IMG/VR virus record: IMGVR_UViG_3300046535_001869
Span: 1-64,000 of that record
From: a virus
Reading direction: 5' to 3' (one strand)
Length of the DNA: 64,000 nucleotides
Shown piece after piece: positions 8,301-24,113 of the stretch. A model generated the notes under the pieces. That model was not told the DNA's origin. It worked only from the letters and a program-made list of their open reading frames with translations, and did not search any database. Position 1 is the stretch's first letter, and each line of letters starts with the position of its first letter. The translations under genes and the position numbers were made by a program.

Positions 8301-8903
8301 GGGATGGCAAACACCGACATCAATGTCGGCTGGCCGGCGATCTCGGTTGACGAGCAGTACGCGACAACGACGCCGTTTGTGGCCTCATGGACGACCAGTT
8401 CACCAAACTGGACGCTGGTGCGAGCGACGGCGGGAAACGGTGCCGTAGTCAGGGACGGCGATCGATTCATGTTCGAGAAGAACCCTCCGTTGCCGCCGCC
8501 AATCTCGGTCACGCTGAACTCACCGACCAACTACCTGCGGGATACGCCGTATTACGCCATCAACACAATAGCCGTAAACGCCACGACCTATACCTGCAAC
8601 ATGACGACAGTGCTCGGTAGCGCAGGCAATATTCTCGTCCCGGCCGCCCCCGGCAGCGGCGGGGCCAACGCCACCTATCATTGGTATGTTGGTCAGGACG
8701 TAGCGCCTGCGATTGGTGCGGAGAATACCGGCTATCAGAACCAGGGTTCCTATATGTCATGGAAGCGTTCATCGCATCTGTGGATGAAGGCGCTTGGAAT
8801 CACTGGGCTTGACGCGGCGATCACCGACGCAGGGTTAAGGTTCGACCATGCAGGGTTCTTGGCGGTCGTGCGCGGTGCGTTTCAGGACCATTTCGGCGCG
8901 TGA
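5328..8903 (+). CDS. Large secreted tail spike-like protein
   Basis: 1191 residues from GTG 5328. The start reads MRRTRRSILAGLAASVPGMAWA, a signal peptide of twin-arginine type or an Arg-rich Sec signal. Residues about 60-135 look like a cadherin/Ig-type repeat (TWSITGPDASLFVIDVSTG). A following region with YWSDGSLKNASFMM and PAGGSIAIGVWSGG resembles the N-terminal domain of exo-acting rhamnogalacturonan lyase-like proteins. Residues about 398-525 hold two tandem copies of a repeat of about 62 residues with TATT..PHG and TPS.Y motifs (FCCH-like). The C-terminal 500 residues look like a helical-barrel hydrolase or lyase domain. It is the main candidate capsule or LPS depolymerase of the cassette. 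Its stop overlaps the next gene. Confidence 0.55.
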   Translation: MRRTRRSILAGLAASVPGMAWAARRSKIPTGPPSIPPQIVSVTPTTGGFLGGTGSANTPIMTMIATMSPMVPAFTGTWSITGPDASLFVIDVSTGVLSVGAVDVAVGTYNLSAVATQVGATGSPFTQAISVVGSAGELLATMTLVNTSATVAQPSGFVTPMFGWNFHKGHIPSGTAPTFKNGSLPQPYSWGCQSYWSDGSLKNASFMMICLGSTVPAGGSIAIGVWSGGTAPTTSARTAAEVYTEAIQVNLVGQGSTFGLTGTWGAWLTSDVNNAEQFVYLDGDAGKVWRFLTHVAPTQGGTKHGQMECYHYVAALTNDTGGLGGFRYLPCLAQPWYDVNSPAKASRSFSTINWQHGAGPTTVPYPLYYTPQTWTQPLTTHALSTVVFTGGSLASLTFSGGVVTATTVLPHGLSGVTRMGIAGVTPSNYNGSFACTVTGASTFTYPISSSPTSPATIPGTYGFVTATAAAPHGFGIATTKALAIQGNTPSGYDTTAITCTVTTTTAFNYPLGVNPGTNTVAGTYFLNTTTVTSAGATTAFYTGDAANQFCIPVRVSSSGTLPPPLDANTLYSCRGTKTGTTTVNFTTVASTAGSPLTMTGPGSGTLTITPLPTLYHFGRMFMPTTDARWNFFQGAGSYTAEPTIRTVIDRAYWNGDSTNKLSLINPWDMTLTGVVNYAADFSWAPQSIGKLYSARSSGGGTDGRLDLGAMTGYQGSDFFNQSAASDTLNRIHGFAAALDHRCFRNSTNGNCVNLRGSGHPHTGMTANSTIRYVADHFNSNTGFTSPPTANTNEVFDQSNNTHSPAFTYWPFLRTGEPQFLDMLLEWGIGAILDCDPNSRNTLAGQPAAYTAVGIFSGSGGERQVAWGNRGVHTAAAVCPLVMPDSSDIHGCLSGMSDDTCAVSLAVYTSNILGTYASTNGLFGPYGGPATGGPTIYQDSFQSTYTRMAMCLAAGARENPDALVILQKMADWHAYLVSKFGYYYTTGYFNKTGMANTDINVGWPAISVDEQYATTTPFVASWTTSSPNWTLVRATAGNGAVVRDGDRFMFEKNPPLPPPISVTLNSPTNYLRDTPYYAINTIAVNATTYTCNMTTVLGSAGNILVPAAPGSGGANATYHWYVGQDVAPAIGAENTGYQNQGSYMSWKRSSHLWMKALGITGLDAAITDAGLRFDHAGFLAVVRGAFQDHFGA

Positions 8904-9296: not shown

Positions 9297-10319
9297 TTGG
9301 CGCTCCCCGATCCCCAGCCGGCCGGCCTGCCGACGATCAGCCAGACCGAGGCGCGGACGCTCACCGGGCTGCGCTCGTTCCTCCTCGGCGTCCTGCCCGC
9401 GGGTACGGACGTAGTACGCGGGCAGGACAACCGCGTGCCGGAGCCGATCGGCGCGGATTTCGTTGTCATGACGCCGTTGATGCAGCCGCGGCTCGGGACG
9501 AACGAGGTCACATACTACGACGATGTGTTCGTTGGTTCGATCGCCGGGACGACGCTGACGGTTTATGCCGACGATCCGGACAGCTACCTGACCGATGATG
9601 CAGACCCACCGAACCTCGTAACTGACGATGCAACGCCGCCCGCGCCGCTGACTAACGATGATCCAGTGGCACTCGTCCTTGCCATGAACCTCGGTCCAGG
9701 CATGGTGGTAAGAGATCGGGTCGCTCCCGAGGATGCGGTCGTCTCGCTCCATACCTCGTCTGGCCTTCCGATCCTAACCTCCTCCGGGAGCCAGGTTACG
9801 GTCACGACCGCGGTCGCCCCGGGCACGGCAATCGTCCGCCAGCTCACCGGGACCCTCGGCGGACCCGGGACCTACGAGGTCTCGCCGTCGCAGTACACCG
9901 AGCCCGAGGTCATGTACGTCGGTGTCCGGGCCGATCTGGTTCCGACCGAGTATACGATCCAGCTCGACGTCCATGGCCCGCGCAGCGGCGACAGCACGCG
10001 GATCATCGAGGGGCTATATCGCTCCGAGTATGCGACGGACTTCCTCGACCCGTATGGCGTCTCGCCGCTGTACTGTAGCGATCCACGTCAAGCGCCGTTT
10101 GTCAACGACCAGGATCAGGTCGAATACCGCTGGTCGCTCGACGCACACCTTCAGGTTAACCCTGTGATCAATACGCCGCAGGAGTTCGCGACCGAGGTCT
10201 TCGTCGATCCACTTGTGGTTGCGCCGGTGCTTCCCTTCCTACCGCTGACGACCTCGTCTGGCGTGCACGTGCAGGCCTCGTCCGGCCACCAGGTCCTAGT
10301 TGGAGTAAACGTTGGCTAA
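9297..10319 (+). CDS. Neck terminator protein (LIC_12616-like) with inserted module
   Basis: 340 residues from TTG 9297. The C-terminal third (about 215-300) has IQLDVHGPRSGDSTRIIEGL, then PLYCSDPRQ, then VEYRWSLDAHLQVNPVI, the signature of LIC_12616-family phage neck terminator proteins. These cap the tail end before head joining. Residues about 78-199 are foreign to that family. They hold an expanded copy of a module seen in three other tail proteins (FVGSIAGTTLTVY ... GTAIVRQLTGTLGGPGTYEVSPSQ), itself interrupted by a low-complexity stretch with repeats of LTDDADPP and VTDDATPP. Confidence 0.65.
   Translation: MALPDPQPAGLPTISQTEARTLTGLRSFLLGVLPAGTDVVRGQDNRVPEPIGADFVVMTPLMQPRLGTNEVTYYDDVFVGSIAGTTLTVYADDPDSYLTDDADPPNLVTDDATPPAPLTNDDPVALVLAMNLGPGMVVRDRVAPEDAVVSLHTSSGLPILTSSGSQVTVTTAVAPGTAIVRQLTGTLGGPGTYEVSPSQYTEPEVMYVGVRADLVPTEYTIQLDVHGPRSGDSTRIIEGLYRSEYATDFLDPYGVSPLYCSDPRQAPFVNDQDQVEYRWSLDAHLQVNPVINTPQEFATEVFVDPLVVAPVLPFLPLTTSSGVHVQASSGHQVLVGVNVG
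9528..9893 (+). repeat. Inserted GTY module, copy 1 (in neck protein)
   Basis: Encodes residues 78-199 of the neck protein. It begins GSIAGTTLTVY and ends QLTGTLGGPGTYEVSPSQ, like copies 2-4, but carries extra acidic repeats in the middle. Shared residues are the GxIxGxxLTV opening, a PGT or SGT turn, and the GGxGTYxVxxSQ closing. Confidence 0.6.
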
Positions 10320-11028
10320 TCTGACTGTTGGTAGGCTCCCGCGCGCGACTGGTATCGCCCAGGTCGACGACTCCGCGTTCGTCGATGAGGGGTCGACCGG
10401 AATGACGGTGCGGCTCACATCGAGCTTGGATTCGTATGGGGATCAGGGACTAATCGTAGAGGGTCCGCCGGTTAGTGGTTCCGGTCCCACTATTGCGATC
10501 GGGTTGACAACCGGGGTAGGAGCGGGTGGCTTCGAAGCCCAAACTTTCGTTGGTCCTGGCGATATCTCGTTCTCCTTTATTACTTTGGCGCACGGCGGAA
10601 CGGTCGAGGCACCTACCTATCTGCCAGATACCACGATCGTCGGTAACTACGCAGCGTTTGCTTATGCTAGCGGGACGATGGGCGCCGTCACCTATAAGAC
10701 CGTCGCTGAGATAAATGTCGTCGCTGCTGGTGATCATTCCTCCGGCAACGCCGCGGTCAATTTTGGCATCAAGACCTGGAACAATGCGCAGGACTACTCC
10801 ACGCGCCTCGAGATTGACGGCGACGGCCACACCCGCGTCCTAAACGGCTATTTAGTCACCGACGACGTCCAGCTAGTCTCGGAGCTTCCCGCCGCATCAT
10901 CCGTTCCCCTCGGTACGCGCACGATGGTCAGCGATGCGCTGGCGCCGGTCTTCGCCGCGATCGTCGTTGGTAGCGGCGGCGTGGTCTGCCCGGTCTACAG
11001 CGACCACGTCAACTGGCGCTGCGGCTAA
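10312..11028 (+). CDS. Tail-associated protein with fibre-type C-terminus
   Basis: 238 residues from TTG 10312, overlapping the previous gene by eight bases. The last 50 residues (VSELPAASSVPLGTRTMVSD, then AAIVVGSGG and PVYSDHVNWRCG) match a C-terminal cap common in phage fibre and tail-associated structural proteins. The rest is beta-rich and Gly/Thr-rich. It lies between neck terminator and sheath. A virion surface protein is likely; no precise role can be given. Confidence 0.5.
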   Translation: MANLTVGRLPRATGIAQVDDSAFVDEGSTGMTVRLTSSLDSYGDQGLIVEGPPVSGSGPTIAIGLTTGVGAGGFEAQTFVGPGDISFSFITLAHGGTVEAPTYLPDTTIVGNYAAFAYASGTMGAVTYKTVAEINVVAAGDHSSGNAAVNFGIKTWNNAQDYSTRLEIDGDGHTRVLNGYLVTDDVQLVSELPAASSVPLGTRTMVSDALAPVFAAIVVGSGGVVCPVYSDHVNWRCG

Positions 11029-11062
11029 AGTCTACTTTTCTCCGAAATGGAGTAAACCTTAA

Positions 11063-12817
11063 ATGCCCATCTCCGTGACGCCGGCCATCCCCGCTTCCCA
11101 GATCGTAAACGTGATCCCATCGGTCCTCGCGGCCGGTGGCGACGCGCTCGACTTGGTTGGCCTGATCCTCACGACGGACATCCATCCGCCGATCGGCGAG
11201 GTGCTATCGTTCGCTGACGCTGCCGACGTGACGGATTACTTCGGCGGGCTGACCCAAGAGGACGCGCTCGGGACGATCTACTTCAACGGCCCGGACAACG
11301 CCACGGCCCAACCCGGCGCGCTGCTCGTGGCGCAGTACCCGCTAGTTGCGGTCTCTGGCTATCTGCGCGGCGGTGACATCTCCGGGATGGCGCTGGCCGA
11401 CCTCCAGGCGCTGCCGGTCGAGGCGTTTCACATCACGATCGCCGGGGCGGACCAGCCGACCTCGACGATCAATCTCTCGACGGCGACGAGCTTCTCGTCC
11501 GCCGCGATAATAATCGCCGGACGCACGGGATGGGACGGCCCGCAGGACGGGACGGCTACGGTCGCCATCACGGGGACGACCATGACGGTCTCCTCGGTCG
11601 CTAGCGGCACAATCGGAGTCGGAGACCACGTCCAGGGCACCGGGTTCACGGGCCAGGTATTCATCACGGCGCAACTCACCGGTACCGGCGGGGTGGGCAC
11701 CTACACCATCACCCCCAGCCAGCCGGGGACCTCGCCCGCGACGTCCCGCGACATCTATAAGCCGTCGTGCTACTACGACTCCGTGTCCGGGGCGCTCGTC
11801 CTTCAGACCCCTGGGACTGGTGTCACGGCGACGATCGGGTTCGCCACTGGCTCCGGGGCGGGTACGATCCAGGATAGCCTCAAGTTCACCGCCGCGACCG
11901 GTGCAGTCCTCTCTCAGGGTGCCGACGCGGCCGTGCCCGGTACGTTCATGGACGCGCTGATTGCGCGGACCCAGAACTGGGCCTCGTTTATGACCACTTG
12001 GGAGCCCGTGACGGCGGACAAGGAGGGGTTCGCGACGTGGACCAACGCGCAGCGCAACCGCTTCGTCTACGAGATGTGGGATACCGACGTGGCCAACATC
12101 GCAACCGGATCGGGCTCGGCCGCGGTCGCGTTCGTCAACGCCGGGGCGCTGTCTGGCATCTCGATGATCTATGAGGACCCGTCCGTCGACACCGTCGGCG
12201 GCGAGCTCGCGGCGTTCGAGATGGGGTGGACGGCCTCGCTCGACTTCACGCGACTCAATGGCCGGCAGACCGCGGCGTTCAAGCGCCAGTCGGGGTTGGC
12301 ACCGCAGATCTTCGACGGGACCGCGGCGAGCAACCTAATCGCCAAGGGGATGAACTTCTTTGGGGATTATACGACCCCGAACGAGGCGTTCCGATGGTAC
12401 TACCCGGGGTCGATCTCCGGGGAGTTCGTGTGGAAGGACTCGTATGTAAATCAGATCTGGCTCAACGCTGCGCTCCAGCTCGCGATCATGGTTGGGCTCG
12501 ATAATTCTCCGTCAATCCCGTATAACAGCGACGGGTACACGCAGATCGAGTCTTTCGTGATGGACCCGATCAACGCGGGGGTTCGGTTCGGCGCGATCGT
12601 CGCCGGGGTCGCGCTCTCGGCCGCCCAGAAGACCGAGGTAAATCGAGCGGCTGGGCTGACGATCGATACGATCCTCTTCCAGCGTGGCTGGTACTTCCAG
12701 GTGTCGCCCGCGACGGCGGCTATCAGGCGGGCACGAACGAGCCCATCCTGCACCCTTTGGTATTGCGACGGCGGGTCGATCCAGAAGATCACGCTCGCGA
12801 GCATCGAGATCCAGTAA
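11063..12817 (+). CDS. Tail sheath protein (DUF3383 family)
   Basis: 584 residues. The start (MPISVTPAIPASQIVNVIPS ... LVGLILT) and the FADAADVTDYFGGLTQED segment (about 50-66) are typical of DUF3383 proteins, which form the contractile sheath of some myophages. The C-terminal half (TRLNGRQTAAFKRQSGLAPQ, then YEMWDTDVANIATG nearby) also fits the family. Residues about 163-221 are an inserted module shared with three other tail proteins. It is followed directly by the tube gene, as in related phages. Confidence 0.8.
   Translation: MPISVTPAIPASQIVNVIPSVLAAGGDALDLVGLILTTDIHPPIGEVLSFADAADVTDYFGGLTQEDALGTIYFNGPDNATAQPGALLVAQYPLVAVSGYLRGGDISGMALADLQALPVEAFHITIAGADQPTSTINLSTATSFSSAAIIIAGRTGWDGPQDGTATVAITGTTMTVSSVASGTIGVGDHVQGTGFTGQVFITAQLTGTGGVGTYTITPSQPGTSPATSRDIYKPSCYYDSVSGALVLQTPGTGVTATIGFATGSGAGTIQDSLKFTAATGAVLSQGADAAVPGTFMDALIARTQNWASFMTTWEPVTADKEGFATWTNAQRNRFVYEMWDTDVANIATGSGSAAVAFVNAGALSGISMIYEDPSVDTVGGELAAFEMGWTASLDFTRLNGRQTAAFKRQSGLAPQIFDGTAASNLIAKGMNFFGDYTTPNEAFRWYYPGSISGEFVWKDSYVNQIWLNAALQLAIMVGLDNSPSIPYNSDGYTQIESFVMDPINAGVRFGAIVAGVALSAAQKTEVNRAAGLTIDTILFQRGWYFQVSPATAAIRRARTSPSCTLWYCDGGSIQKITLASIEIQ
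11549..11725 (+). repeat. Inserted GTY module, copy 2 (in sheath protein)
   Basis: Encodes residues 163-221 of the sheath protein: opening VAITGTTMTVSSVASGTIG, middle VQGTGFTGQVF, closing LTGTGGVGTYTITPSQ. This is the most regular copy and resembles copy 4 closely. Confidence 0.7.
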
Positions 12818-12850
12818 ATAGCGCGTCGAGACAAGGAGCCTTGAAATCCA

Positions 12851-13300
12851 ATGGCGACGATTACCGCTGCAAATGCGATCTTCCTTTTAACGATCGCCGA
12901 TCTTTATCCTGTAGCACAGCGGCTCCGTGGCTTCGGTGTCGATGATGCGTTCACGACGGACGCTGCGGATATGGGTGAGACCCAGGTCGGCGTCGACGGC
13001 TATGGTGTCGGCGGTTATGTGCCGCGCGTCGTCCCGATGACAATCCGATTCCTCGCCTCGTCCACCTCCCTCGATGTGTTCGAGAACTGGATCGGCGCGA
13101 TGGATGCCGCTCAGGAGGTGATCTACGGCAGCGCCGTTATCAATCAGCCATCAATCGGTCGGAAGTACACGTGTTACCTAGGCCAATTGATGCGCGTTAA
13201 CACGATGGCAGACGTCCGGCGGGTCCTAGCTAATCGGGAATTTCATATCTCGTGGCTCCCCCAAGGCACCATACCCGCGATCAGCGCCGCGCCGGTATAA
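12851..13300 (+). CDS. Tail tube protein
   Basis: 149 residues following the sheath gene. The sequence FLLTIADLYPVAQRLRGFGV, then DDAFTTDAADMGETQVGVDG, a GGYVPRVVPMTIRF strand and a PSIGRKYTCYLGQL segment match the tube proteins that accompany DUF3383 sheaths. It would form the inner hollow tube of the contractile tail. Last late gene before a gap holding an antisense gene. Confidence 0.75.
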   Translation: MATITAANAIFLLTIADLYPVAQRLRGFGVDDAFTTDAADMGETQVGVDGYGVGGYVPRVVPMTIRFLASSTSLDVFENWIGAMDAAQEVIYGSAVINQPSIGRKYTCYLGQLMRVNTMADVRRVLANREFHISWLPQGTIPAISAAPV

Positions 13301-13366
13301 TGCAGCGCGCCAGGAGCCTGCTGGAGAGCGGAAGCGTCCCGGGCGCGGTAACCTTACCCTGTGGGG

Positions 13367-13400
13367 CTAAGCGCGTCCAGCGCCGTCCCTAGACGCTTAG
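13367..13400 (-). terminator. Hairpin at the end of the antisense small gene
   Basis: CTAAGCGCGTC (13367-13377) pairs with GACGCTTAG (13392-13400), with a two-base bulge. The hairpin includes the stop codon of the minus-strand gene and could stop its transcription. There is no U-run, so a terminator role is uncertain. The rest of 13301-13366 shows no gene. Confidence 0.3.
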
Positions 13401-13591
13401 TGCCATCCCCAGGTCTGCCGGCTCACGCACCCGACTTTCTTGTAGTTGTTGCCGTGCCCGGTCGGCCCGTTCAGGTCCTTATAGATGGCCGCCCGTTGCT
13501 CGCACTGGGTGGCGGAGGCCAGCGGTTCCGAGAGTAGGTTGCACGACGTACCGGTGGCCATGTATAGGCACATCATAACGGCGTAGACCAT
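13397..13591 (-). CDS. Antisense small secreted Cys protein (moron-like)
   Basis: 64 residues: MVYAVMMCLYMATGTSC is a short hydrophobic leader, followed by a mature part with Cys residues (TQCEQR and VGCVSR) and Lys/Asn-rich stretches, the style of small periplasmic phage proteins. AAGGGGAAATCTC precedes the ATG, and an early-type promoter lies at 13628-13655. It is the only minus-strand gene within the late operon, between tube and tail chaperone. This is the arrangement of a moron gene expressed separately from virion genes. Function unknown. Confidence 0.5.
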   Translation of the reverse strand: MVYAVMMCLYMATGTSCNLLSEPLASATQCEQRAAIYKDLNGPTGHGNNYKKVGCVSRQTWGWH

Positions 13592-13627
13592 GAGATTTCC
13601 CCTTCGTTAAAAACGTTCCAGTACATT

Positions 13628-13655
13628 TACATAGTTACCTTCGCGAGAAAGTAAA
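13628..13655 (-). promoter_or_regulatory. Early-type promoter, copy 7 (antisense gene)
   Basis: On the minus strand GGGGTTTACT (the -35 TTTACT at 13650-13655) is followed by a 16-bp spacer and a -10 TATGTA at 13628-13633. The GGGGTTTACT block is the same as in the early-region promoters, although the following bases diverge. Confidence 0.55.
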
Positions 13656-13664
13656 CCCCTTACC

Positions 13665-14267
13665 ATGCGGAAATCGAAGACCGTCGTGATCGAGGCCGAG
13701 GGCCGCGATCAGGGCAAGGCGTTCCTCCTAACCGAGATGCCGGCGCGCCAGGCCGAGGCCTGGGCCGACCGCGCGTTCCTCGCACTGGCCCACTCCAGCA
13801 TCGACCTGCCCGCCGGGATGGAGCGGTCCGGGATGGCGGGGATCGCCCAGCTGATGCGTCTGCTTGGCGATTCCGAAGTCCCCGACGCCGGCCCTCTGAT
13901 GAACGAGCTCGTCTCGACGCTGAGGATCGCCAATATCACGACGACGGCGCGCCTGGTGGCGCACATCAAGTTCCCGGAGCTCCAGCCGCTGATGGACGAG
14001 ATCCTCGGGTGCGTCCAGTTCGTCTGGGACCGCGGGAAGGGCCTGACGCGCCCGCTCAAGGACGACGGTGACGAGGGCGACGATATAGAGGAGGTCTCAA
14101 CCCGGCAGTTCCTGCGCTCGGAGGTGCTCGGGCTCCACGTAAATTTTTTGCTGGCCGCCGTGATCTTGAACTCGATCGCAGCGGCCTCGGAGATGCGAGA
14201 GCTACCGAGCCTAGAGACTACGTCAACGTCGCCTCCGCCGTCGGCGCCGTCGTCTCCGGCCGCCTAG
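13665..14267 (+). CDS. Tail assembly chaperone, short form (lambda G-like)
   Basis: 200 residues. The N-terminus MRKSKTVVIEAEGRDQGKAF, with LLTEMPARQAEAWADRAFLAL, matches tail assembly chaperones encoded between tube and tape measure. These bind the tape measure before tube polymerisation. The C-terminal tail of the short form is Pro/Ser-rich (TSTSPPPSAPSSPAA) and low in complexity. That tail is what the zero frame looks like after the slippery site at 14141-14150, so the conserved C-terminus is in the -1 frame. Confidence 0.7.
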   Translation: MRKSKTVVIEAEGRDQGKAFLLTEMPARQAEAWADRAFLALAHSSIDLPAGMERSGMAGIAQLMRLLGDSEVPDAGPLMNELVSTLRIANITTTARLVAHIKFPELQPLMDEILGCVQFVWDRGKGLTRPLKDDGDEGDDIEEVSTRQFLRSEVLGLHVNFLLAAVILNSIAAASEMRELPSLETTSTSPPPSAPSSPAA

Positions 14268-14380
14268 CGACGTTGATCGAGCTCGATACGGTGTATGGGG
14301 TTCAGGACCTCTACGATCTGCTGGAGATACTACTGATCGACTCCCATAACCGAGCGGCTGCGATGAAGGTGGACGAGTAG
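13665..14380 (+). CDS. Tail assembly chaperone, predicted -1 frameshift form (GT-like)
   Basis: The -1 frame is open from the slippery stretch AAATTTTTTG (14141-14150) to TAG 14378-14380 and encodes about 76 residues. Its end reads ATLIELDTVYGVQDLYDLLE then ILLIDSHNRAAAMKVDE, which looks like a conserved second-frame chaperone extension. Both A AAT TTT and T TTT TTG are canonical -1 slippery heptamers in the correct phase. No ATG or GTG exists in that frame after the site; only a TTG at the ATLIEL position could start it. The tape measure begins two bases later. Frameshifting is established for lambda G/GT; here it is predicted. Confidence 0.6.
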
Positions 14381-14381
14381 C

Positions 14382-16181
14382 GTGCCCACGATCGTGGACT
14401 CTCTGATCGTGACGTTGTCCTTGGACCCTCGGAACTTCACCCAGGGGCAGAAGCATGCCATAGCGAGCCTGCAGCAAACCGCGCGGCAAATGCAGGCCAC
14501 GGCGACGAGCGTCCAGCGCTCCGGGAACCAGGCCGTCGCAGTCATCCAGGGCATCACGCACCCGGTCAACGCACTCCAGATGGCGTTCCAGCGCCTCGCG
14601 GTAACTACGGCGCGGCAGAGCCCGTTCCAGACGAACCTGGCGCAGATCGCAGCGCAGGGGCGCCGGACCGGCGCGGGCATCCAACAGGGCGCACTCGCGG
14701 GCGCGTCTGGACTCCGGATCCTCGGGGTCGCAGGCCTCGGCGCGTTCGCGGCGATCGAGACGCTGCGCAAGGCGATGGACCACGCCAAGAGCGCGGCCGG
14801 GGGCATCTTCACGGCCAGCGTCGGCGCAGGTGCCGCTGGCATGAACATCGAGCGGTTCACGGCCATCTCTCAGGCGCTGCAGACGCATGGCAACGTCGCG
14901 CAGCAGCAGACGCAGTCGTGGCTGAGTCAGATGGCACAGCGCCAGTTCGTCGCCCGTACCACCGGCGAGGGCGCGAGTGAGCTCGCGTTGGGTGCCGCGC
15001 GGACCGGCGCCAACATCAACGCGTTTTCGGACACGCCCGAGGAGATGATGCGGAAGATGGCCGCTACCTTCGCTGGCCTGTCCAAGCAGGAGGCGATCGG
15101 GCGCGGGAGCTTCCTGGGTCTTAGTCCGGAGCAGTCTCTCGCGCTACGCGAGTCCGGCAATAACTTCACACGGTTCGTCGACCAGGCGGCCGTTACCCTC
15201 AAGAGCCAGGAGCAGGCGGCCCGCGGCGTGACCGACGCGTCGAACCGGATGAGCGAGGCGTTCGGCAAGCTGACGCGCCTGATCGACGAGCAGTTGGCGC
15301 CGGGGATCGTGAAGGTCTATGATCTGATCACAAGGATCCTAAACCTGGTCACCGGTACCCTCGGGAAGCCGTTTGACGAGCCAGGTGCGAATACCGGGCC
15401 GCACGGCGCGTTCGTCGAGGGCATCAGGCGCGGATTGAACTGGTTACGAGGCGGGTCGCCCGCCACGAGCGCTCCGATCCCTCCGGGACCAGGCGCCGGC
15501 CATGTCGCACCGAGGGCTGAGCGCGTCGCCTTCATGCGTTCCTACGCAGCGAGTAAGGGTCTGAATCCAAACGCGGTCGAGGCGACGGCACGCGGCGAGG
15601 GGTTGAACGTCTATACTGGCGACAAAGGGACGTCGTTCGGCGATTTCCAGCTCCACGTCGGCGGCGGGATGGGGGATCAGGCACTTCGCGCCGGTGTGGA
15701 CATAAGGGACCCGAATAAGTGGAAGGAGCAGGACACGTTCGCTATCGACCAGATGGCTGCCAACCGTGACAAGGGTGCCGCCTGGTACGCGGGCCAGTGG
15801 CACGGTGCCCCAGGCTGGGCTGCAGCACAGTTCGCTATCCCCGGGTCGGCACCATCTCTCCCTGCAGCGGTGACCGCTGGGAGATCGGCGCTTCCTCCTG
15901 GAGTTCGCCTTAACTCCAGGGGCCAGATGATAAGCGAGGATCTCTTCCGCGACGTTTCAGGCCAGAGGGTCGGTGCCTCCGGTGCGCACGTCGATTTAGC
16001 ATACATGCGAGCGAACGCGGCGCGAGCTGCGGCTAACGCTTCGTCCGTTACCAACCACGGCAACGTGAGCGTCGGTGACGTGAACGTCTATACGCAGGCG
16101 ACGGACCCGGCGGCCGTCGCCCAGGCGGTCAAGACCTCGATCCAGCGTTCGGTGACCCAGGCCAATACGGGGTTGGAGTAG
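14382..16181 (+). CDS. Tape measure protein with lysozyme-like domain
   Basis: 599 residues from GTG 14382. The N-terminal 100 residues are Gln/Ala-rich helix, then a hydrophobic stretch (about 108-126, LRILGVAGLGAFAAIETL) as in tape measure proteins. From about residue 385 a lysozyme or transglycosylase-like region follows (YAASKGLNPNAVEATARGEG ... GTSFGDFQLHVGGG ... DQMAANRDKGAAWY). It could open peptidoglycan on DNA entry; the catalytic Glu may be the one in ARGEGLN. The protein is short for the family, which implies a short tail. Confidence 0.75.
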   Translation: MPTIVDSLIVTLSLDPRNFTQGQKHAIASLQQTARQMQATATSVQRSGNQAVAVIQGITHPVNALQMAFQRLAVTTARQSPFQTNLAQIAAQGRRTGAGIQQGALAGASGLRILGVAGLGAFAAIETLRKAMDHAKSAAGGIFTASVGAGAAGMNIERFTAISQALQTHGNVAQQQTQSWLSQMAQRQFVARTTGEGASELALGAARTGANINAFSDTPEEMMRKMAATFAGLSKQEAIGRGSFLGLSPEQSLALRESGNNFTRFVDQAAVTLKSQEQAARGVTDASNRMSEAFGKLTRLIDEQLAPGIVKVYDLITRILNLVTGTLGKPFDEPGANTGPHGAFVEGIRRGLNWLRGGSPATSAPIPPGPGAGHVAPRAERVAFMRSYAASKGLNPNAVEATARGEGLNVYTGDKGTSFGDFQLHVGGGMGDQALRAGVDIRDPNKWKEQDTFAIDQMAANRDKGAAWYAGQWHGAPGWAAAQFAIPGSAPSLPAAVTAGRSALPPGVRLNSRGQMISEDLFRDVSGQRVGASGAHVDLAYMRANAARAAANASSVTNHGNVSVGDVNVYTQATDPAAVAQAVKTSIQRSVTQANTGLE

Positions 16182-16182
16182 G

Positions 16183-16752
16183 GTGGCCCGCGGTCTTCTG
16201 ATAGCCGACAGTCCTGGGCTCATCGCCGCGTTCGGACCACCCCAATGGGGGATCTTCGACCAGAACGGCTCGCCGATCCTTGTGGTCGACGCGGTGGCCG
16301 ACGTCGAGTATGCGCACGACTACCGGATCTCCGACTATCCGCAGGAGGAGGGCGCATTCGCGAGCTACAACAAGGTCCAGGTCCCGTATCAAGCGAAGGT
16401 CGGGTTCTTCATCGCACAGTCGCGCGAGTCGTTCCTGAACGGGATCGAGGCTAAGCTCAAGTCCCTCGACTTTTTCTCAGTCGTCACCCCGGAGATCCGG
16501 TATTCAAGCGCCAACCTGACGCATTTTGGCTACCGGCGCGACGTCAGATCGGGAGTAACCCTGATCAAGGTAGAGGTCTGGTGTGAGGAGGTCCGGATCG
16601 TCAACGCGATCGTACCTTCTAACCCGCAGTCGACGAACGCCGCGACGCCGACCCAGTCGGGTCAGGTGCAGCCGATACCGGCAGGTGATGAGACCTTCTC
16701 TGATCTGGAGATCACTCCGGTAACGCCGACTCCGCTGAACCCGCCGACATGA
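16183..16752 (+). CDS. Baseplate / distal tail protein
   Basis: 189 residues from GTG 16183. WGIFDQNGSPILVVDAVADV, then YRISDYPQEEGAFASYNKVQ and VVTPEIRYSSANLTHFGYRR are characteristic of a conserved baseplate protein encoded after the tape measure in these myophages. The last 45 residues are a Pro/Thr-rich tail. It probably links tube end and hub. It is coupled to the plug gene by an ATGA overlap. Confidence 0.6.
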   Translation: MARGLLIADSPGLIAAFGPPQWGIFDQNGSPILVVDAVADVEYAHDYRISDYPQEEGAFASYNKVQVPYQAKVGFFIAQSRESFLNGIEAKLKSLDFFSVVTPEIRYSSANLTHFGYRRDVRSGVTLIKVEVWCEEVRIVNAIVPSNPQSTNAATPTQSGQVQPIPAGDETFSDLEITPVTPTPLNPPT

Positions 16753-17456
16753 CTAGCCTGAACTTTCAGATCGTTCCGACGACGGAGGCTCCGGCGCAGC
16801 GCATCCAGACGACGCTTGGCGGTCAAGCAGTAACGATCGATCTCTATACGAAGAGCGTTAACGTCCCGGTCGTCCCTCCCGGCTCGATCGAGCCGTCCGA
16901 CATTCCGATGGGGTCCTTCCTTGGTGTCATCGCGGGCAACGTCCTGACCGTCGGTAGTGTCGCTGCGGGCGGTATCCCGCCCGGGGTGGTGATCATCAGG
17001 GGACCCGGGGTGCTGTACCCGACCTACGTCTCGAGGTTCGGGACCGGCGTCGGCGGCGTCGGGACGTACATCGTGACCCCGTCGCAGGATGTTGGGCCGG
17101 TCGGGATGTACGCCGTCGCGCCGGCCGCGCCGACCTACGAGAATACGAACCCGGTCTTCCTCGACCTTTACGTCAACGACACGACGCTGATCGTTGGTGG
17201 GGTGCCGTGCCTCAACGACGTCCGGATAGTGAGAGACACCTACCTCGGGTTCATCGGCGATCTGTCCGTGATCGACACGGAGGGGAATGACGACCCGCAG
17301 GGCGTGCCGCTCCGTCTTCCGCTGCCGCCGCTGCGGAACGTCTGGCAGCGCAATCTGCCGCTCTCGCTGGCGGGAAAGGCGCCGCCGAACCTAGCTAACC
17401 GTATCCCTGGTCTCGGGTCGCGCTTCCTTTTGACCTACTGGCCGAACCTACCGTGA
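16749..17456 (+). CDS. Baseplate plug protein with inserted module
   Basis: 235 residues. FQIVPTTEAPAQRIQTTLGG, a DLYTKS strand, then FLDLYVNDTTLIVGGVPCLN, VRDTYLGFIGDLSVIDTEGN and a C-terminal GSRFLLTYW match the phage baseplate plug family (DUF6983 type). Plugs close the hub above the spike. In normal members DLYTKS runs almost directly into LDLYVN; here about 75 residues separate them, including the shared module at 57-116. The ends overlap both neighbours. Confidence 0.65.
   Translation: MTSLNFQIVPTTEAPAQRIQTTLGGQAVTIDLYTKSVNVPVVPPGSIEPSDIPMGSFLGVIAGNVLTVGSVAAGGIPPGVVIIRGPGVLYPTYVSRFGTGVGGVGTYIVTPSQDVGPVGMYAVAPAAPTYENTNPVFLDLYVNDTTLIVGGVPCLNDVRIVRDTYLGFIGDLSVIDTEGNDDPQGVPLRLPLPPLRNVWQRNLPLSLAGKAPPNLANRIPGLGSRFLLTYWPNLP
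16917..17096 (+). repeat. Inserted GTY module, copy 3 (in plug protein)
   Basis: Encodes residues 57-116 of the plug: opening FLGVIAGNVLTVGSVAAGGI, closing FGTGVGGVGTYIVTPSQ. It splits the conserved DLYTKS/LDLYVN region of the plug fold and is the most divergent copy. Confidence 0.6.
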
Positions 17457-18352
17457 CCGCTCCGTACGCTATCAGGCGTATCGTCCTGACGCTCCAGATC
17501 GGCAAGGGTAATACAGCGATCCAACTCGCCAGCGGTAACCCCGGTTTACGGATCCACGCGCACGTCGAGTTCGCGAATATGCCGACCACCGGGAACGCGC
17601 AGATCCGGATCTTTGGCCTGACGCTGGACCACATGAACCAGCTCTCGGTCGCTGGGCTCGTGTTCGAGTCGCGCCAGGGGCAGAACTTCGTCGCGATCCA
17701 GGCCGGGGACGATGTCTCGGGGCTCGCGACGATCTTTAGGGGACAGATTATCGAGGCCTACCCGGACTTCGCGCGCCAGCCGGACGTCTCGTTCTTTATC
17801 TTCGCGACGCCGTCTAACGAGATCCAGTTGAAGCCGATCGAGCCGTCGACCTTCCAGGCTGGGACCTCCGCAGGGACAGCGTTAGAGCAGATCGTCAAGA
17901 AGGTTGGCCTCACGCTGGAGAACAGTGGGGTCAACGTCGTCCTCTCGTCTCCCTACTTCCCGGGTACGGCGTGGCAGCAGATCCTCTCGTTGATCCGTGC
18001 AGCCAACTGCTTTGCCTATGTCGATGGCGTAAATAAGAAGTTGGCGGTCTGGCCGAAGGACGGGAGTCGATCTGGCGGTAAGATCACCATCTCGCCCGAG
18101 AATGGGATGATTGGCTATCCGCAATTCCAGGCCCTTAATCTGGTAGTCCGGACGCTTTTCAATACTGAGGTTAGTCCAGCCGACCCTGGCAAGAACATCA
18201 CGGTTAAGAGCCAGCTGACGGCCGCTAATGGCGACTTTACGGTGATTGGAGTGACCCACGAGTTGATGAGCGAGATGCCAGACGGACCTTGGGAGACGAC
18301 GATCGTGGCAACGCCGGTGAAGTCTGGTGACTTCTCTCTGAGGCCTGCGTGA
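17453..18352 (+). CDS. Baseplate hub protein (gpD/gp27-like)
   Basis: 299 residues from GTG 17453. FANMPTTGNAQIRIFGLTLD, then FRGQIIEAYPDFARQPDVSF, FIFATPSNEIQLKP and VVRTLFNTEVSPADPG with a VIGVTHELMSEMPDGPWET end fit the hub proteins that form the ring at the base of the tail tube (P2 gpD / T4 gp27 type). Position between plug and spike agrees. Confidence 0.65.
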   Translation: MTAPYAIRRIVLTLQIGKGNTAIQLASGNPGLRIHAHVEFANMPTTGNAQIRIFGLTLDHMNQLSVAGLVFESRQGQNFVAIQAGDDVSGLATIFRGQIIEAYPDFARQPDVSFFIFATPSNEIQLKPIEPSTFQAGTSAGTALEQIVKKVGLTLENSGVNVVLSSPYFPGTAWQQILSLIRAANCFAYVDGVNKKLAVWPKDGSRSGGKITISPENGMIGYPQFQALNLVVRTLFNTEVSPADPGKNITVKSQLTAANGDFTVIGVTHELMSEMPDGPWETTIVATPVKSGDFSLRPA

Positions 18353-19083
18353 GCGATACCCCGTTCCTCGGCGCGCAGGACCAGGGCGATGGCGCGAGCC
18401 AGCACAACGCGTCCGACTTCCACATTCAACAGGCGCTTGCTCAGATTAACACGGCCGCTATGGTCAAGATCGTCCGCGCGCCGTATGACAAGGACGGGAA
18501 GGACATCGACCCGGGCTCGGTCGTCCCCGTCGGCTACGTCGACGTTCAGCCGATGGTCCACCAGATCGACGGCCACGGCCAGCCGACGCCTCACGGGACC
18601 GTCTTCCGGCTGTCGTACCACCGGGTCCAAGGCGGCCGGAACGCGATCATCTCCGATCCAGAGAAGGGCGACATCGGCCAGATGGTCGTCAACAGCCGCG
18701 ATACGAGCATCGTGCGCTCGACCAACGACGTGGGGAACCCAGGGTCGAGGCGCAAGTTCGATCTTGCAGACGGCATCTATGTCGGGAGTCCCCAGCAGAA
18801 GGAGAAGCCGGAACAATACCTGTCCTTTCCGAAGGGTGGGATCGTCATCTGTAATAAGGACGGCTGGAAGATCACGTTCAACGAGGACGGGATCGAGATC
18901 GAGGCGAAGGGGAACACGATCACGATGGGCGAGGACGGGGTGACGATCAACGGGTGCCTTGTGAATAAGAACGGAGATGTCATCACAAAGAAGGGCGTGA
19001 ATTTGGATACACACACCCACAACCAGGGAAACGACTCTAACGGCGATACCGAAGTCCCGACCGACGAGCCGAACGTCGGATGA
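18349..19083 (+). CDS. Baseplate spike protein (gpV / Gp138-like)
   Basis: 244 residues from GTG 18349. Residues about 30-130 form the OB-fold-like part seen in Gp138 N-terminal domains (VGYVDVQPMVHQIDGHGQ, then VFRLSYHRVQGGRNAIISDP). The C-terminal third has short repeats of polar beta strands (GIVICNKDGWKITFNEDGIE, then GVTINGCLVNKNGD), which build a triple-stranded spike shaft. It ends with a DTHTHNQGN His cluster, known in P2 gpV-type tips to bind iron. It would puncture the outer membrane. Confidence 0.7.
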   Translation: MSDTPFLGAQDQGDGASQHNASDFHIQQALAQINTAAMVKIVRAPYDKDGKDIDPGSVVPVGYVDVQPMVHQIDGHGQPTPHGTVFRLSYHRVQGGRNAIISDPEKGDIGQMVVNSRDTSIVRSTNDVGNPGSRRKFDLADGIYVGSPQQKEKPEQYLSFPKGGIVICNKDGWKITFNEDGIEIEAKGNTITMGEDGVTINGCLVNKNGDVITKKGVNLDTHTHNQGNDSNGDTEVPTDEPNVG

Positions 19084-19520
19084 ACACCCTGCTTCTCAGC
19101 GCCCCGAGCGAGGATGTCCCGTCAGGCTGGGACCTACAGCTCGACACGGCCGGCAACCTGGCCGTTGCGACCGGCCACTACGCCATAGCCCAGGACGTCG
19201 CCTCGGCCGTGCGGACGTTCCTAGGCGAAGAATGGTATAATACGACGTCTGGCGTGCCGTATCTTGAGCAGATCCTTGGTCAGCGCCCACCGCTCCAGTT
19301 CCTCAAGGCCCAGTTCGTCGCGGCTGGGATGACCGTGCCCGGCGTGGCCGGCATTACCTGCTTCCTGACTGGCCCAGGCCTCAACCGCGAGGTTGGTGGC
19401 CAGCTCCAGATCACTAACGACGTGGACAACCTCTTGACCGTGATCGAGTCGACGACGATTCTCGCGCCCGGGGTATCGCCCTGGTATGTTGTTAGCGTTG
19501 GACCGGAGGACCTTGGCTGA
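19080..19520 (+). CDS. Baseplate wedge protein (gpW/gp25-like)
   Basis: 146 residues. WDLQLDTAGNLAVATGHYAI, then AQDVASAVRTFLGEEWYNT and TSGVPYLEQILGQRP match the gp25/gpW baseplate wedge family, which connects hub and wedges and starts sheath assembly. It overlaps the spike stop and the start of the gpJ-like gene. Confidence 0.7.
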   Translation: MNTLLLSAPSEDVPSGWDLQLDTAGNLAVATGHYAIAQDVASAVRTFLGEEWYNTTSGVPYLEQILGQRPPLQFLKAQFVAAGMTVPGVAGITCFLTGPGLNREVGGQLQITNDVDNLLTVIESTTILAPGVSPWYVVSVGPEDLG

Positions 19521-21016
19521 TGCCCACTAACGTCCCGAAGCCGGTCTTCGGCGATAAGGGATTCGTCGGGCCATCGGAGTCAGCGATCCTCGCCGGTGTC
19601 CAGGCCGACATCAACTTGGCGCTCGGTGGCAACGTCAACCCAAGGCTGAATACGCCGCAGGGACAGATCGCGACCACCGAGACGGCGGTCATCGGTGATA
19701 GTAATGCAACATTCCTGTATTTTTCCTCACAAGTTGACCCGGCGTTCAGCTCCGGACGGATGCAGGATGCGATCGGAAGAATTTATTTTCAGACCCGCAT
19801 CCCCGGCGCGCCGACCACGGTCCAGGCGACGTGCCGCGGCCTGACCGACGTGCCGATCCCGGTGGGAGCGCTGGCCCGCGCCACCGACGGAAACATCTAC
19901 ATCTGCCAGGCTGCCGGGACGATCGGCCTCGCCGGCACGGTGGTTCTCCCGTTCGCCTGCATCCAGAACGGCCCGATCCCGGCGCCGGTAGCCTCGGTCA
20001 ACCAGGTCTACCAGGCGATCCCTGGATGGGATTCGATCACCAACACCGAGGACGGCGTCCTCGGGCGGAACGTTGAGAGCCGCTCGGAGTTCGAGGCGCG
20101 TCGCGCGGCCTCGGTCGCGGCCAACGCGCGCGGCATCCTCGACTCGATCCAGGGCGCGGTGCTCGCGGTCCCCGGCGTCGTCGACGCGCTGGTCATCGAC
20201 AATCCTCTGGATACGCCAGTCGTGATCTACGGCTACTTCCGCTTCGGCGAGACCGGCCAGCTCTCGGGGTTCAACGACCAGCCGTTCTACACAGGTCAGC
20301 CGGCGCTGTACCTGGGTCCACACTCGCTCTACGTCTGCGCCCTCGGCGGGACCGATCAGGCCGTCGGAGAGGCGATCTGGACCAAGAAGGCGCCGGGTTG
20401 CGGCTACAACGGCAACACGACGGTCATCGTGGTCGACCCGAGCCCGGACTATAGCCCACCCGTCCCGACCTACTACGTCACATTCGAGCGTCCGATCGTC
20501 GAGGACTTCACGGTCCAGGTCACGCTTCAGAACAGCACTACGGTCCCGTCGGATGCGCTGGCCCAGATCCAGAACGCGGTGATCAACGCTTTCGCCGGAG
20601 CCGACGGCGGCTCGCGCGCCCGGATCGGCGGGACGGTGCTGGCCTCGCGCTACTACGGTCCTGTCGCGCTGCTCGGTTCATGGGCGCAGATCATCAGTAT
20701 CAAGGTCGGTCTTACCGGGCAGGTGGCGGTCTTCACGGGCTCGATCACCGGGACCGTTCTGACGGTCAGCGCCATGAACATAGGCACGATCGAGGCGGGC
20801 CAGTTGCTCCAGGATGCTGGCCTGATGGCCTCGGGGACGACCGTCGTCGACCAGCTCACCGGCACCACGGGCGGGATCGGGACCTACACCGTGTCGGTCG
20901 ACCAGACGATCCCGTCGGAGGCGATGAACTGTACCGACCTCCTCGACGACGTCGCGCTGAACATCAACCAGGTCCCGGCCATCTCGGCCGGTGAGATCCA
21001 CCTGACGCTGGTATGA
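19520..21016 (+). CDS. Baseplate J-like protein with inserted module
   Basis: 498 residues. RSEFEARRAASVAANARGIL and DSIQGAVLAVPGVVDALVID (about 187-227) are the core of baseplate J proteins (P2 gpJ / T4 gp6 family), which form the outer baseplate ring. The C-terminal part fits too (TVQVTLQNSTTVPSDALAQI, then NAFAG). Residues about 402-464 are the inserted module shared with neck, sheath and plug. The end (VPAISAGEIHLTLV) resumes the family. Confidence 0.75.
   Translation: MPTNVPKPVFGDKGFVGPSESAILAGVQADINLALGGNVNPRLNTPQGQIATTETAVIGDSNATFLYFSSQVDPAFSSGRMQDAIGRIYFQTRIPGAPTTVQATCRGLTDVPIPVGALARATDGNIYICQAAGTIGLAGTVVLPFACIQNGPIPAPVASVNQVYQAIPGWDSITNTEDGVLGRNVESRSEFEARRAASVAANARGILDSIQGAVLAVPGVVDALVIDNPLDTPVVIYGYFRFGETGQLSGFNDQPFYTGQPALYLGPHSLYVCALGGTDQAVGEAIWTKKAPGCGYNGNTTVIVVDPSPDYSPPVPTYYVTFERPIVEDFTVQVTLQNSTTVPSDALAQIQNAVINAFAGADGGSRARIGGTVLASRYYGPVALLGSWAQIISIKVGLTGQVAVFTGSITGTVLTVSAMNIGTIEAGQLLQDAGLMASGTTVVDQLTGTTGGIGTYTVSVDQTIPSEAMNCTDLLDDVALNINQVPAISAGEIHLTLV
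20723..20911 (+). repeat. Inserted GTY module, copy 4 (in gpJ-like protein)
   Basis: Encodes residues 402-464: opening VAVFTGSITGTVLTVSAMNI, then GTIEAGQLLQDAGLMASGTT, closing QLTGTTGGIGTYTVSVDQ. It lies near the C-terminus, just before the normal end of the family. Confidence 0.7.
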
Positions 21017-21701: not shown

Positions 21702-24113
21702 ATGCGCAGATCCTTGCCGTTTGTCCTAGCTGCGGTCCTCCTTCTGCCTCGCCCGTCCGCTGTATGGGCCGAGACTACCTCTGACTTCATCTCTGGGTCG
21801 CCGCTCGCGACGAGTCCGATCCCTTCTACCGCCAAGATCCCGGTGGTCGAGGGGGCTACGCCAGGCGCGCTGATGCATGAGGTCCCGGTATCGTCGTTTC
21901 CTACCTATATGGGGCAACTCAAGGCGATTACACCGCAGCAGTATGGCGCCGTCGGTAATGGGTCGGCTGATGATACGGCAGCGGTGCAGGCTTGGTTCAC
22001 CGCACTAAAGACGGGCAATTATCTCGGATACTGCAACGGTGTCTTTCGGCTGACCGGAAGCGTCAATGCCTCCCCCACAAAATCGTACCGCGTAGAAGGA
22101 TCGTTTGCGGCGGTAAGCTCCACTTCTGGGACCGGCTGTAAATTCTACGTTGACTATAACAACTGGGCTAGTGCGGCGATAGACCTAACAACTCCGTCTA
22201 ACCCAACGACCAGCAACCGGGGTCGCGAGACGTGGTGGAGCAACGTTTCGATTATATATAATCCGGCATTGACAGCGCCTCCGGTCGGCTTTCGGCACAG
22301 ATATTCCTCGGCTCTTAATCTTGAAAACTTCTCGATCCTGCAATACACGGTCAATCGCGGGACGTGCCTGTCGATCAGCAGCGCATTTAATGATCGCCTG
22401 AAGGACAATGTGCAGATATGGGGATGCGGCGGAAACGTGCCGGCGCATCTGCGGCCAGCCGGGATCACGTTTTCGATCACGGCAGCGGCAACTACCCTGA
22501 CATCGAGCGCTACGTTCTTCTCTGCTGCCGATGTTGGTCAGGACATCGTGATCCTCGGGTCGCCTCTATATGAGGCGTTCCACATTGCGTCGTTTACGAA
22601 TACGACCACGGTCGAGGTTACTCGCGCGGCGACGAACACCCATACGGCGCAACTGGGAGCGGTCTCGGCGATCACCGGGGCGATGACCGCCGGCAGCCCA
22701 ACGCTGACGATCAACGTCGCCAACTTGTCGTCGAGTGACGTTGGTAGAAACGTCTACGTGCTCGGCTGCGGCTCGACAGACGGGACATCAATCGGGGCGC
22801 TGCGCTCGACGATCTCGGCCGTCAGTGGGGCCACGGTTACGCTCGCCGATAATGCCCTGACGAACTGCGCCGCCGGTGCGTCGATTATCATCGGCCCGGC
22901 CGTTGAGATTTACGCGGACGCGGACGGAACGATTAACAACGACGTTTCCTTGATTGGGTTGCACGAGGAGCAGAACTCCGGGACGGCGCTCGTTGTCGCG
23001 AACGCGGTCAACTTGCGCGGGACGATGCTCAAACTGCATTCGTGGAACAACGCGAATATCGGCGAGACAGCCTACGAGTCGCAGTTCAACGGGGTCTTTG
23101 TTAGAACTGACCTGGAACTGGGGCAGGCCGACATCGAGGGAACCTCAATAACGACGCTGGGGCAGATACTCCTTCAGGGCATCAATGCGGGCGGCAACAC
23201 GATCGGGATGCTCGATGGCTTCGCGATCACCGGGCAGCCGAAGGTCGCAATCTCCAACATCGCTGCGAACAACGGAGTCACGGTCGGCACGATCAACACG
23301 CCGCACCAATTAGCGTCAACCTGGGTTCCATCTCTTGTGACCTCAGACGGAACGGGGCGTGGGTTGCTCGCCCAGGGCGCGGTGACGACGCAGCTTACGC
23401 CAGCCCAGCTCCCGAAGCTGATCGCAACGACCACCAACGACAACGCCTGTGATGGCTGCGTTGGCCAGATGATCAGCAATGGGTCGGGGAGCGAGACTGC
23501 CACCGTTACCTTTACGGCGGCCACCCCTTCCGTGATTACGTGGACCTCACATGAACTCTCGCAGAGCAATCCGTCTATCCTTTATTTTACTTCCACTATG
23601 GCAGTGCCGACCGGCTTTACCGCTGACACGAACTATTGGACGGTGCCGGGGACGATCACGAACAACACATTCTCGGTTGCACCGACGCTGGCCGATGCAC
23701 TGGCCGGGACAAACCTTGTGGCGGCATCTGATACTGGGACAGGCGTGCAGACGGGGACTCGTTTGGGCTATTTGCCAGACAATACGCCGCTGAGCATCCT
23801 CGCCGTCACGCTGCCCGCCGGTGATTGGGACTGCTGGGGAGGCGCACGGTTTCTGCCTGCTGCGTCCACGACCCAATCTTTTAACGGCGTTGGCATCGCC
23901 CCGACCATCGATTATCTCGGGACGGTTGATCAAAGCAACGGGACGATGGAGACGTACACTGCTTATGCCGCAGGGAAGGCTGTCCAGTATCCAACCGGCC
24001 TGAGTTGGCGACGGCTTGCGACACAAACGGTCGTCTATCTTACGGCGCAGGCCGACTTTGCGGTCGATGTCGAGCGGGTTGCTGGTCGGATAGACTGCCG
24101 CCGGGCACGCTAA
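21702..24113 (+). CDS. Tail spike with pectate-lyase-like beta helix and signal peptide
   Basis: 803 residues. The N-terminus MRRSLPFVLAAVLLLPRPSA is a signal peptide (cut near VWA). QYGAVGNGSADDTAAVQAWF (about 80-99) is the entry motif of pectate-lyase-type right-handed beta helices found in phage tail spikes. Two loops with repeated ITxAxTTLT / ITGAMTAGSPTLTI segments (about 255-375) resemble modules common in spike proteins. The C-terminal domain is beta-rich and Thr-rich. Likely a polysaccharide-degrading or binding spike. The presence of a signal peptide on a spike is unusual. Confidence 0.65.
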   Translation: MRRSLPFVLAAVLLLPRPSAVWAETTSDFISGSPLATSPIPSTAKIPVVEGATPGALMHEVPVSSFPTYMGQLKAITPQQYGAVGNGSADDTAAVQAWFTALKTGNYLGYCNGVFRLTGSVNASPTKSYRVEGSFAAVSSTSGTGCKFYVDYNNWASAAIDLTTPSNPTTSNRGRETWWSNVSIIYNPALTAPPVGFRHRYSSALNLENFSILQYTVNRGTCLSISSAFNDRLKDNVQIWGCGGNVPAHLRPAGITFSITAAATTLTSSATFFSAADVGQDIVILGSPLYEAFHIASFTNTTTVEVTRAATNTHTAQLGAVSAITGAMTAGSPTLTINVANLSSSDVGRNVYVLGCGSTDGTSIGALRSTISAVSGATVTLADNALTNCAAGASIIIGPAVEIYADADGTINNDVSLIGLHEEQNSGTALVVANAVNLRGTMLKLHSWNNANIGETAYESQFNGVFVRTDLELGQADIEGTSITTLGQILLQGINAGGNTIGMLDGFAITGQPKVAISNIAANNGVTVGTINTPHQLASTWVPSLVTSDGTGRGLLAQGAVTTQLTPAQLPKLIATTTNDNACDGCVGQMISNGSGSETATVTFTAATPSVITWTSHELSQSNPSILYFTSTMAVPTGFTADTNYWTVPGTITNNTFSVAPTLADALAGTNLVAASDTGTGVQTGTRLGYLPDNTPLSILAVTLPAGDWDCWGGARFLPAASTTQSFNGVGIAPTIDYLGTVDQSNGTMETYTAYAAGKAVQYPTGLSWRRLATQTVVYLTAQADFAVDVERVAGRIDCRRAR

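Follow-up and report, generated by a model that had tools for sequence, protein, structure and literature searches.

The window analysed here comprises 64,000 nucleotides (positions 1 to 64,000 of the 109,299-base IMG/VR virus record IMGVR_UViG_3300046535_001869) and encodes a phage tail block in which a small folded domain of approximately 64 residues recurs. Copies of this module are present in five different particle proteins of the virus, namely the neck, tail sheath, baseplate plug and gpJ-like baseplate wedge proteins encoded in the window and a capsid cement protein encoded further along the record (Table 1). That the copies form one domain family with one predicted fold, inserted into otherwise continuous proteins in variable copy number, is shown or strongly supported by the profile, modelling and empty-site analyses described below. 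By analogy, we consider it about evenly balanced whether the module is a promiscuous surface domain that acts like the immunoglobulin (Ig)-like domains of phages, by weak multivalent contact with glycans.

Sequence and predicted fold of the module

A first profile, built from the sheath, plug and gpJ segments, was run on all open reading frames (ORFs) of the record and matched these three proteins, the neck protein and one additional protein with two tandem copies, the cement protein; within the record the module is limited to these five. The first-pass annotation of the window had named four carriers, and its in-frame segments in the neck, sheath, plug and gpJ-like proteins were all recovered with refined boundaries, whereas the fifth carrier, which lies outside the window, had been missed. 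Local alignments between the five carriers exceeded those of shuffled sequences (z-scores of 3.6–16.7), with the lowest values for pairs involving the broken neck copy and for the plug and gpJ pair. Two PHROG profiles of independent origin, phrog_38233 and phrog_21413, matched only the module in the sheath (E-values of 3e-7 and 0.0014, respectively), the plug (1e-7 and 3e-6), and gpJ (8e-8 and 3e-6), the significant matches being 6e-5 or better. PHROG 21413 (unknown function) and PHROG 38233 (tail fiber protein) are whole-protein families in which the domain is neither defined nor named; they contain it at profile positions ~397–470 and 552–625, and its membership is clear by sequence, the significant part of each profile match lying within the module. 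In a second contig, L085, the sheath is identical and the modules are the same, which argues against an assembly error.

The neck copy alone matched neither PHROG profile and was recognised because at this position the close relatives L086, L108, and L092 possess a module of the ordinary form. As the first-pass annotation had described, this copy has grown extra acidic repeats: its first strands (~9525–9569) and its C-terminal half (~9792–9911) are separated by an acidic repeat insertion (~9570–9791). Among the related contigs searched, these repeats (DDADPP, DDATPP, TNDDP; window positions 9570–9791) were found only in this phage and in L085.

Searches of Pfam and NCBIfam gave no match to the module, and no Ig-like family of Pfam (Big_2, PKD, HYR, I-set, and others) matched the consensus, the gpJ copy or the sheath copy at E-values up to 10. 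Nothing credible was found at E-values up to 10 when PDB sequences were compared with the module profile. A tblastn search of phage records with the module returned three metagenomic records only, but this search was nearly blind, probably owing to the low-complexity filter. Word searches of the literature for peptide strings of the module found no paper printing them, and literature searches on phage surface-domain themes found no description of the module. By its distribution the module is akin to the Ig-like domains of phages, but not by its sequence.

Based on an alignment of 45 module copies, the gpJ copy was modelled alone with AlphaFold2 as an all-beta structure with a mean predicted local distance difference test (pLDDT) score of 93.6. 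The whole sheath (584 amino acids) was modelled with a mean pLDDT of 86.4, and its module (residues 161–223, pLDDT 80–92) has the same strand pattern, with strands at residues 161–181, 189–191, 199–208, and 211–223. Outside the module the model matches the sheaths of Pa193 (Z 35.2, 457 residues) and E217 (Z 34), so that both profile match and fold identify the carrier as a DUF3383 contractile sheath with the module as an insertion. Within the sheath model the module appears to fold as a separate domain, in what, going by the structure of sheaths in general, would be the outward-facing part of the protein. The shared beta-structured domain proposed in the first-pass annotation is thus seen in the predictions both alone and within a carrier.

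Among solved structures, both rankings are headed by chain 1 of PDB entry 8eci, a 124-residue chain known here only as a capsid chain of the Arthrobacter phage Bridgette (Foldseek probability 1.00 but E-value 0.07; Z 5.9; root-mean-square deviation 2.2 over 60 residues; 25% identity). The module sequence profile does not recover this chain, and the next matches are generic small beta barrels with a Z of 5.1, barely under that of 8eci. Ig folds do not occur in the list of fold matches, although absence from a ranked list is no proof against an Ig fold.

Insertion sites, distribution over the particle, and spread

Homologues without the module reveal that it interrupts otherwise continuous domains, as had been supposed. 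In plug homologues the motif DLYxKxTG-LYLDLYV is gapless at the point where this phage has the module, which splits the conserved DLYTKS/LDLYVN core exactly as had been stated; the plug of the relative L108 has an extended loop there that is free of the module. Sheath relatives of ~490–505 amino acids, including L087/L088, have no module at the corresponding position, where a helix is followed by the VTYDS strand, and the sheaths of isolates (Bcep781, AP22, and Aeromonas and Xanthomonas phages) give two-part alignments covering ~72–83% of the query, as expected if the insert is lacking. Copy number per carrier varies from 0 to 3, and the carriers lengthen with it in steps of ~65–90 amino acids: median lengths are 512, 582, and 659 amino acids for sheaths with 0, 1, and 2 copies, 416, 489, and 557 for the corresponding gpJ proteins (618 for the single protein with three copies), and 163, 258, 316, and 409 for cement proteins with 0–3 copies. 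One insertion site is used in the neck (29/30) and one in the sheath (55 of 58 junctions within residues 163–169), gpJ has a main site (27/34) and two others, and the cement proteins carry their insertions in the C-terminal region.

The module consists of 20% threonine, 18% glycine, and 11% serine, with charged residues amounting to ~3% in total, and low-complexity sequence rich in glycine and threonine can give chance similarity. On such grounds the segments might be regarded as ordinary family-specific loops that share neither fold nor ancestry, but the independent PHROG profiles and the shuffle z-scores reject chance similarity, and together with the confident structure obtained alone and within the sheath and the clean empty sites they refute this explanation, to which we assign next to no probability.

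The distribution of the module was determined in 75 non-redundant contigs related by their sheath. It is present in 154 of 300 exposed proteins (neck 28/71, sheath 58/75, plug 1/55, gpJ 32/55, cement 35/44) and in none of 275 tube (0/74), tape-measure (0/28), hub (0/59), spike (0/59), and adjacent baseplate proteins (gene at 19080, 0/55), the names of these conduit proteins resting on gene order and size instead of family matches. The Fisher P for this split is 2e-55, a descriptive value since the contigs are related and their selection biases the sheath count. Two further genes, at 8900 (3/61) and at 16183 (1/59), carry the module occasionally and belong to neither set. Restriction of the module to exposed virion proteins and its exclusion from conduit proteins are well supported, in agreement with the earlier suggestion that all four tail proteins can expose loops. 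In many genomes at least three carriers are occupied together, and tandem growth is common.

This pattern bears on two explanations that dispense with adhesion. As a stabiliser, the module would strengthen head, neck, and tail by additional contacts between neighbouring subunits, in the manner of cement proteins, which is attractive insofar as cement is the most regular carrier, usually with two tandem copies, and the best solved match stems from a phage whose capsid cement proteins are reportedly dimeric. However, that match is weak and the chain is known only as a capsid chain, homologous sheaths, necks, and gpJ proteins exist without the module, and a conserved interface would not easily allow 0–3 copies at one site or the use of other sites in gpJ; we thus consider a stabilising role unlikely. 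Alternatively, a self-folding and harmless domain could persist as a tolerated passenger in exposed loops, the surface-only pattern then reflecting where insertions are tolerated and not a benefit. Absence from conduit proteins would fit purifying selection too, the conserved residues look structural, and carrier occupancy differs between phages, but sequence and fold have stayed intact over long times (~45% identity, high pLDDT) and the joint occupancy and tandem growth are not those expected of a mere passenger, so that this explanation is judged distinctly unlikely.

The first-pass annotation had assumed spread by duplication, which within this phage was not borne out. Its own copies are 35–54% identical to each other, and module copies are 55–73% identical in DNA, with no recent pairs within genomes. 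Mean identity is 46% within genomes and 45% between them, an excess that is beyond 300 label shuffles but tiny. For 148 of 194 copies, against 54 expected, the closest counterpart in another genome occupies the same carrier, and in no case is the closest relative a copy from another carrier of the same genome. Since the nearest relatives occupy the same site in other phages and are not sister copies, recent intragenomic duplication was rejected, and most of the insertions are old and have been inherited at their sites. An in-frame mobile element (intein-like or selfish DNA) was likewise rejected, as near-identical recent copies are lacking; the module of ~64 amino acids is too short for a nuclease, and flanking signatures were not systematically searched. 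The history of the module would accordingly comprise mostly old insertions inherited per site, on which gains, losses, and tandem changes were superimposed. The plug copy, which apart from this phage occurs only in the near-identical contig L085, looks like a lineage-specific gain.

Occurrence in other viruses and in bacteria, and neighbouring genes

A sheath-independent pattern scan yielded 120 contigs, all with the module, and in combination with the sheath-related set the carriers fall into ~48 protein clusters from environmental virus contigs. Nearly all carriers that could be named are particle or fibre proteins (adaptor, head closure, sheath, wedge, fibre, other tail, and virion structural proteins), and some are linked to carbohydrate-active domains (GH71, GH5 cellulase, GDSL esterase, pectate-lyase-like, and tail-fibre proteins). 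In BFVD, whose models of these proteins are predictions of unstudied proteins, the module is shared by an HK97 capsid protein, a P22 gp10-like protein, Stf, and tip protein J of uncultured Caudovirales, further fibres, a pectate-lyase protein, and collagen-like proteins of Indivirus, with Foldseek template modelling (TM) scores mostly of 0.8–0.9 on the module and ~31–50% identity among the best matches. The collagen-like proteins of Indivirus ILV1 (A0A1V0SCQ2, A0A1V0SDM6) have the module-like fold at 31–36% identity; this predicted likeness suggests transfer between virus realms.

Bacterial genomes contain the module as well: Rhizobium and Paraburkholderia have apparent prophages that share the arrangement seen here, and fibre-like proteins, of which some possess a GH5 or GDSL domain, also carry it. 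Apparent prophages with this tail block lie in Rhizobium freirei PRF 81, R. rhizogenes 17-2069-2c, and Rhizobium sp. ASV20, and in Paraburkholderia bannensis, P. elongata, and P. panacisoli (loci L169/L227, L173/L188, L194/L228, L171, L172, and L214). Modules are found in the sheath in P. bannensis NBRC 103871, and in neck, sheath, and cement proteins in P. elongata and Rhizobium sp. ASV20. A second phage group (L017, L005, and many others) has the module in an adaptor-like protein (SU10_adaptor, phrog_12985; approximately residues 81–148), and the head-closure protein that follows (phrog_578) carries one to several modules; the neck region of this group seems to have been colonised separately. 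One module-bearing protein annotated as “portal protein” in one of the three tblastn records (MW202520.1, 20533–21501; L355) resembles an adaptor protein in its size and next gene, and the label is a probable misannotation.

The features of the virus are compiled in Table 1. The ORF at 10312–11028, between neck and sheath, has no Pfam match, and among the related contigs its only homologue is in the near-identical L085. Four large proteins flanking the tail block (4239–5117, 5328–8903, 21702–24113, and the ORF ending at 27960) have apparent Sec/Tat signal peptides as judged by eye, which are unusual for virion proteins; the probable start of the last is MRRLLVVLALLLAASGAEAQ, inside the listed frame. 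For the 4239–5117 product, Pfam gave a match to the catalytic domain of arabinofuranosidase B (PF09206, 3e-9).

Table 1. Module carriers, module copies, and internal control proteins (window positions unless stated otherwise; HMM, hidden Markov model).
Feature	Position	Strand	Characteristics
Neck / tail terminator protein (carrier 1)	9297..10319	+	340 aa; PF23961 5e-21, phrog_1876 4e-39, NF047498
Neck module copy, interrupted	9522..9914	+	HMM matches at both ends; uninterrupted at same site in L086, L108, L092
Tail sheath protein, DUF3383 (carrier 2)	11063..12817	+	584 aa; PF11863 5e-111, phrog_205 tail sheath
Sheath module copy	11552..11740	+	aa 164–226; PHROG and HMM matches; empty site in relatives; AlphaFold2 strands
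Tail tube protein	12851..13300	+	Internal, negative control; role from position beside sheath and size, no family match
Tape measure protein	14382..16181	+	Internal, negative control; role from position and size, no family match
Baseplate plug protein, Pam3_gp18 family (carrier 3)	16749..17456	+	235 aa; PF22479 1.2e-9
Plug module copy	16914..17108	+	aa 56–120, between DLYTKS and FLDLYVND
gpJ-like baseplate wedge protein (carrier 4)	19520..21016	+	498 aa; PF04865 4e-11, phrog_6 7e-53
gpJ-like module copy	20729..20926	+	aa 404–469; PHROG and HMM matches; modelled alone, pLDDT 93.6
Capsid cement protein (fifth carrier)	104688–105911 of the record, outside the window		Two tandem modules; cement family PF22758, PF23982, phrog_2122

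Putative function and comparison with phage Ig-like domains

The recurrence of the module in dozens of unrelated particle proteins, and in the group studied only in exposed parts, suggests that its many copies probably form a sticky or protective coat. If it acts as a promiscuous adhesive surface domain, an autonomous beta domain of ~64 residues would be placed by phages in surface loops or C-termini of particle proteins, and many copies would be displayed per particle, because a particle contains its sheath and cement proteins tens to hundreds of times; the sheath of E217, for instance, comprises 204 copies (PMC10329688). The modules would provide weak multivalent contact with glycans of the host surface or the environment, and this contact would keep the particle near the cell ahead of the specific receptor-binding step. 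In the myophage P1 the plug is peripheral and links the wedge to the hub's outer side (PMC12810830), and phage Douge carries 919 Ig-like domains per virion that bind host glycans (PMC13033339). Weak multivalent adhesion is favoured by these precedents in conjunction with the exposed display in multi-copy proteins and the link of some carriers to carbohydrate-active domains.

Several points weigh against adhesion. The module profile has no conserved charged residue and, in a background rich in Thr, Gly, and Ser, a single near-invariant aromatic (Tyr51), in contrast to the conserved aromatics of a typical carbohydrate-binding module. As no common binding site is visible, any ligand recognition must lie in the variable loops. 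Carriers linked to glycan enzymes are a minority, exposure was deduced from the role of each protein and not from a particle structure, the exposed and conduit counts were obtained in phages that are related, so they do not represent independent events, and sheath prevalence is biased since the loci were ranked by module-carrying sheaths. The near-uncharged composition could also be read as an inert hydrophilic coat that makes the particle less prone to adhere to debris or shields it, but modules also occur in fibres and beside glycan enzymes, where a non-stick layer is less sensible, and we deem this improbable.

Should the module indeed obey an outside-only rule, its insertion sites would map outward-facing loops of tail, neck, and head proteins. 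The clean split between exposed and conduit proteins makes it a natural marker of the outward face of contractile tails. Culturable Rhizobium and Paraburkholderia harbour prophages built in the same way, in which a role in adsorption is directly testable. The module is common in environmental viruses, yet goes unseen in annotation because neither a Pfam or NCBIfam model nor a sequence-recognisable solved structure exists. More broadly, and only tentatively, it could represent an undescribed family with a possibly non-Ig fold, a module in general use on the virion surface of environmental tailed phages that is shared with giant-virus collagen-like proteins and forms an outside-only adhesive surface of several hundred copies.

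Ig-like domains, reportedly treated by Fraser et al. in 2006 (as cited in PMC10684548), are the usual promiscuous surface domain of phages, and the module would be their counterpart from another sequence family. It resembles them as a small autonomous beta domain that occurs in many unrelated virion proteins, on exposed surfaces, in many copies per particle, and that is present or absent between relatives (~48 clusters; 154/300 versus 0/275). It differs from them in its length of ~64 amino acids, its location mostly in internal loops, and the lack of a match to Ig-like Pfam families, and its best fold matches are small beta barrels (Z ≤ 5.9, weak) instead of Ig sandwiches.

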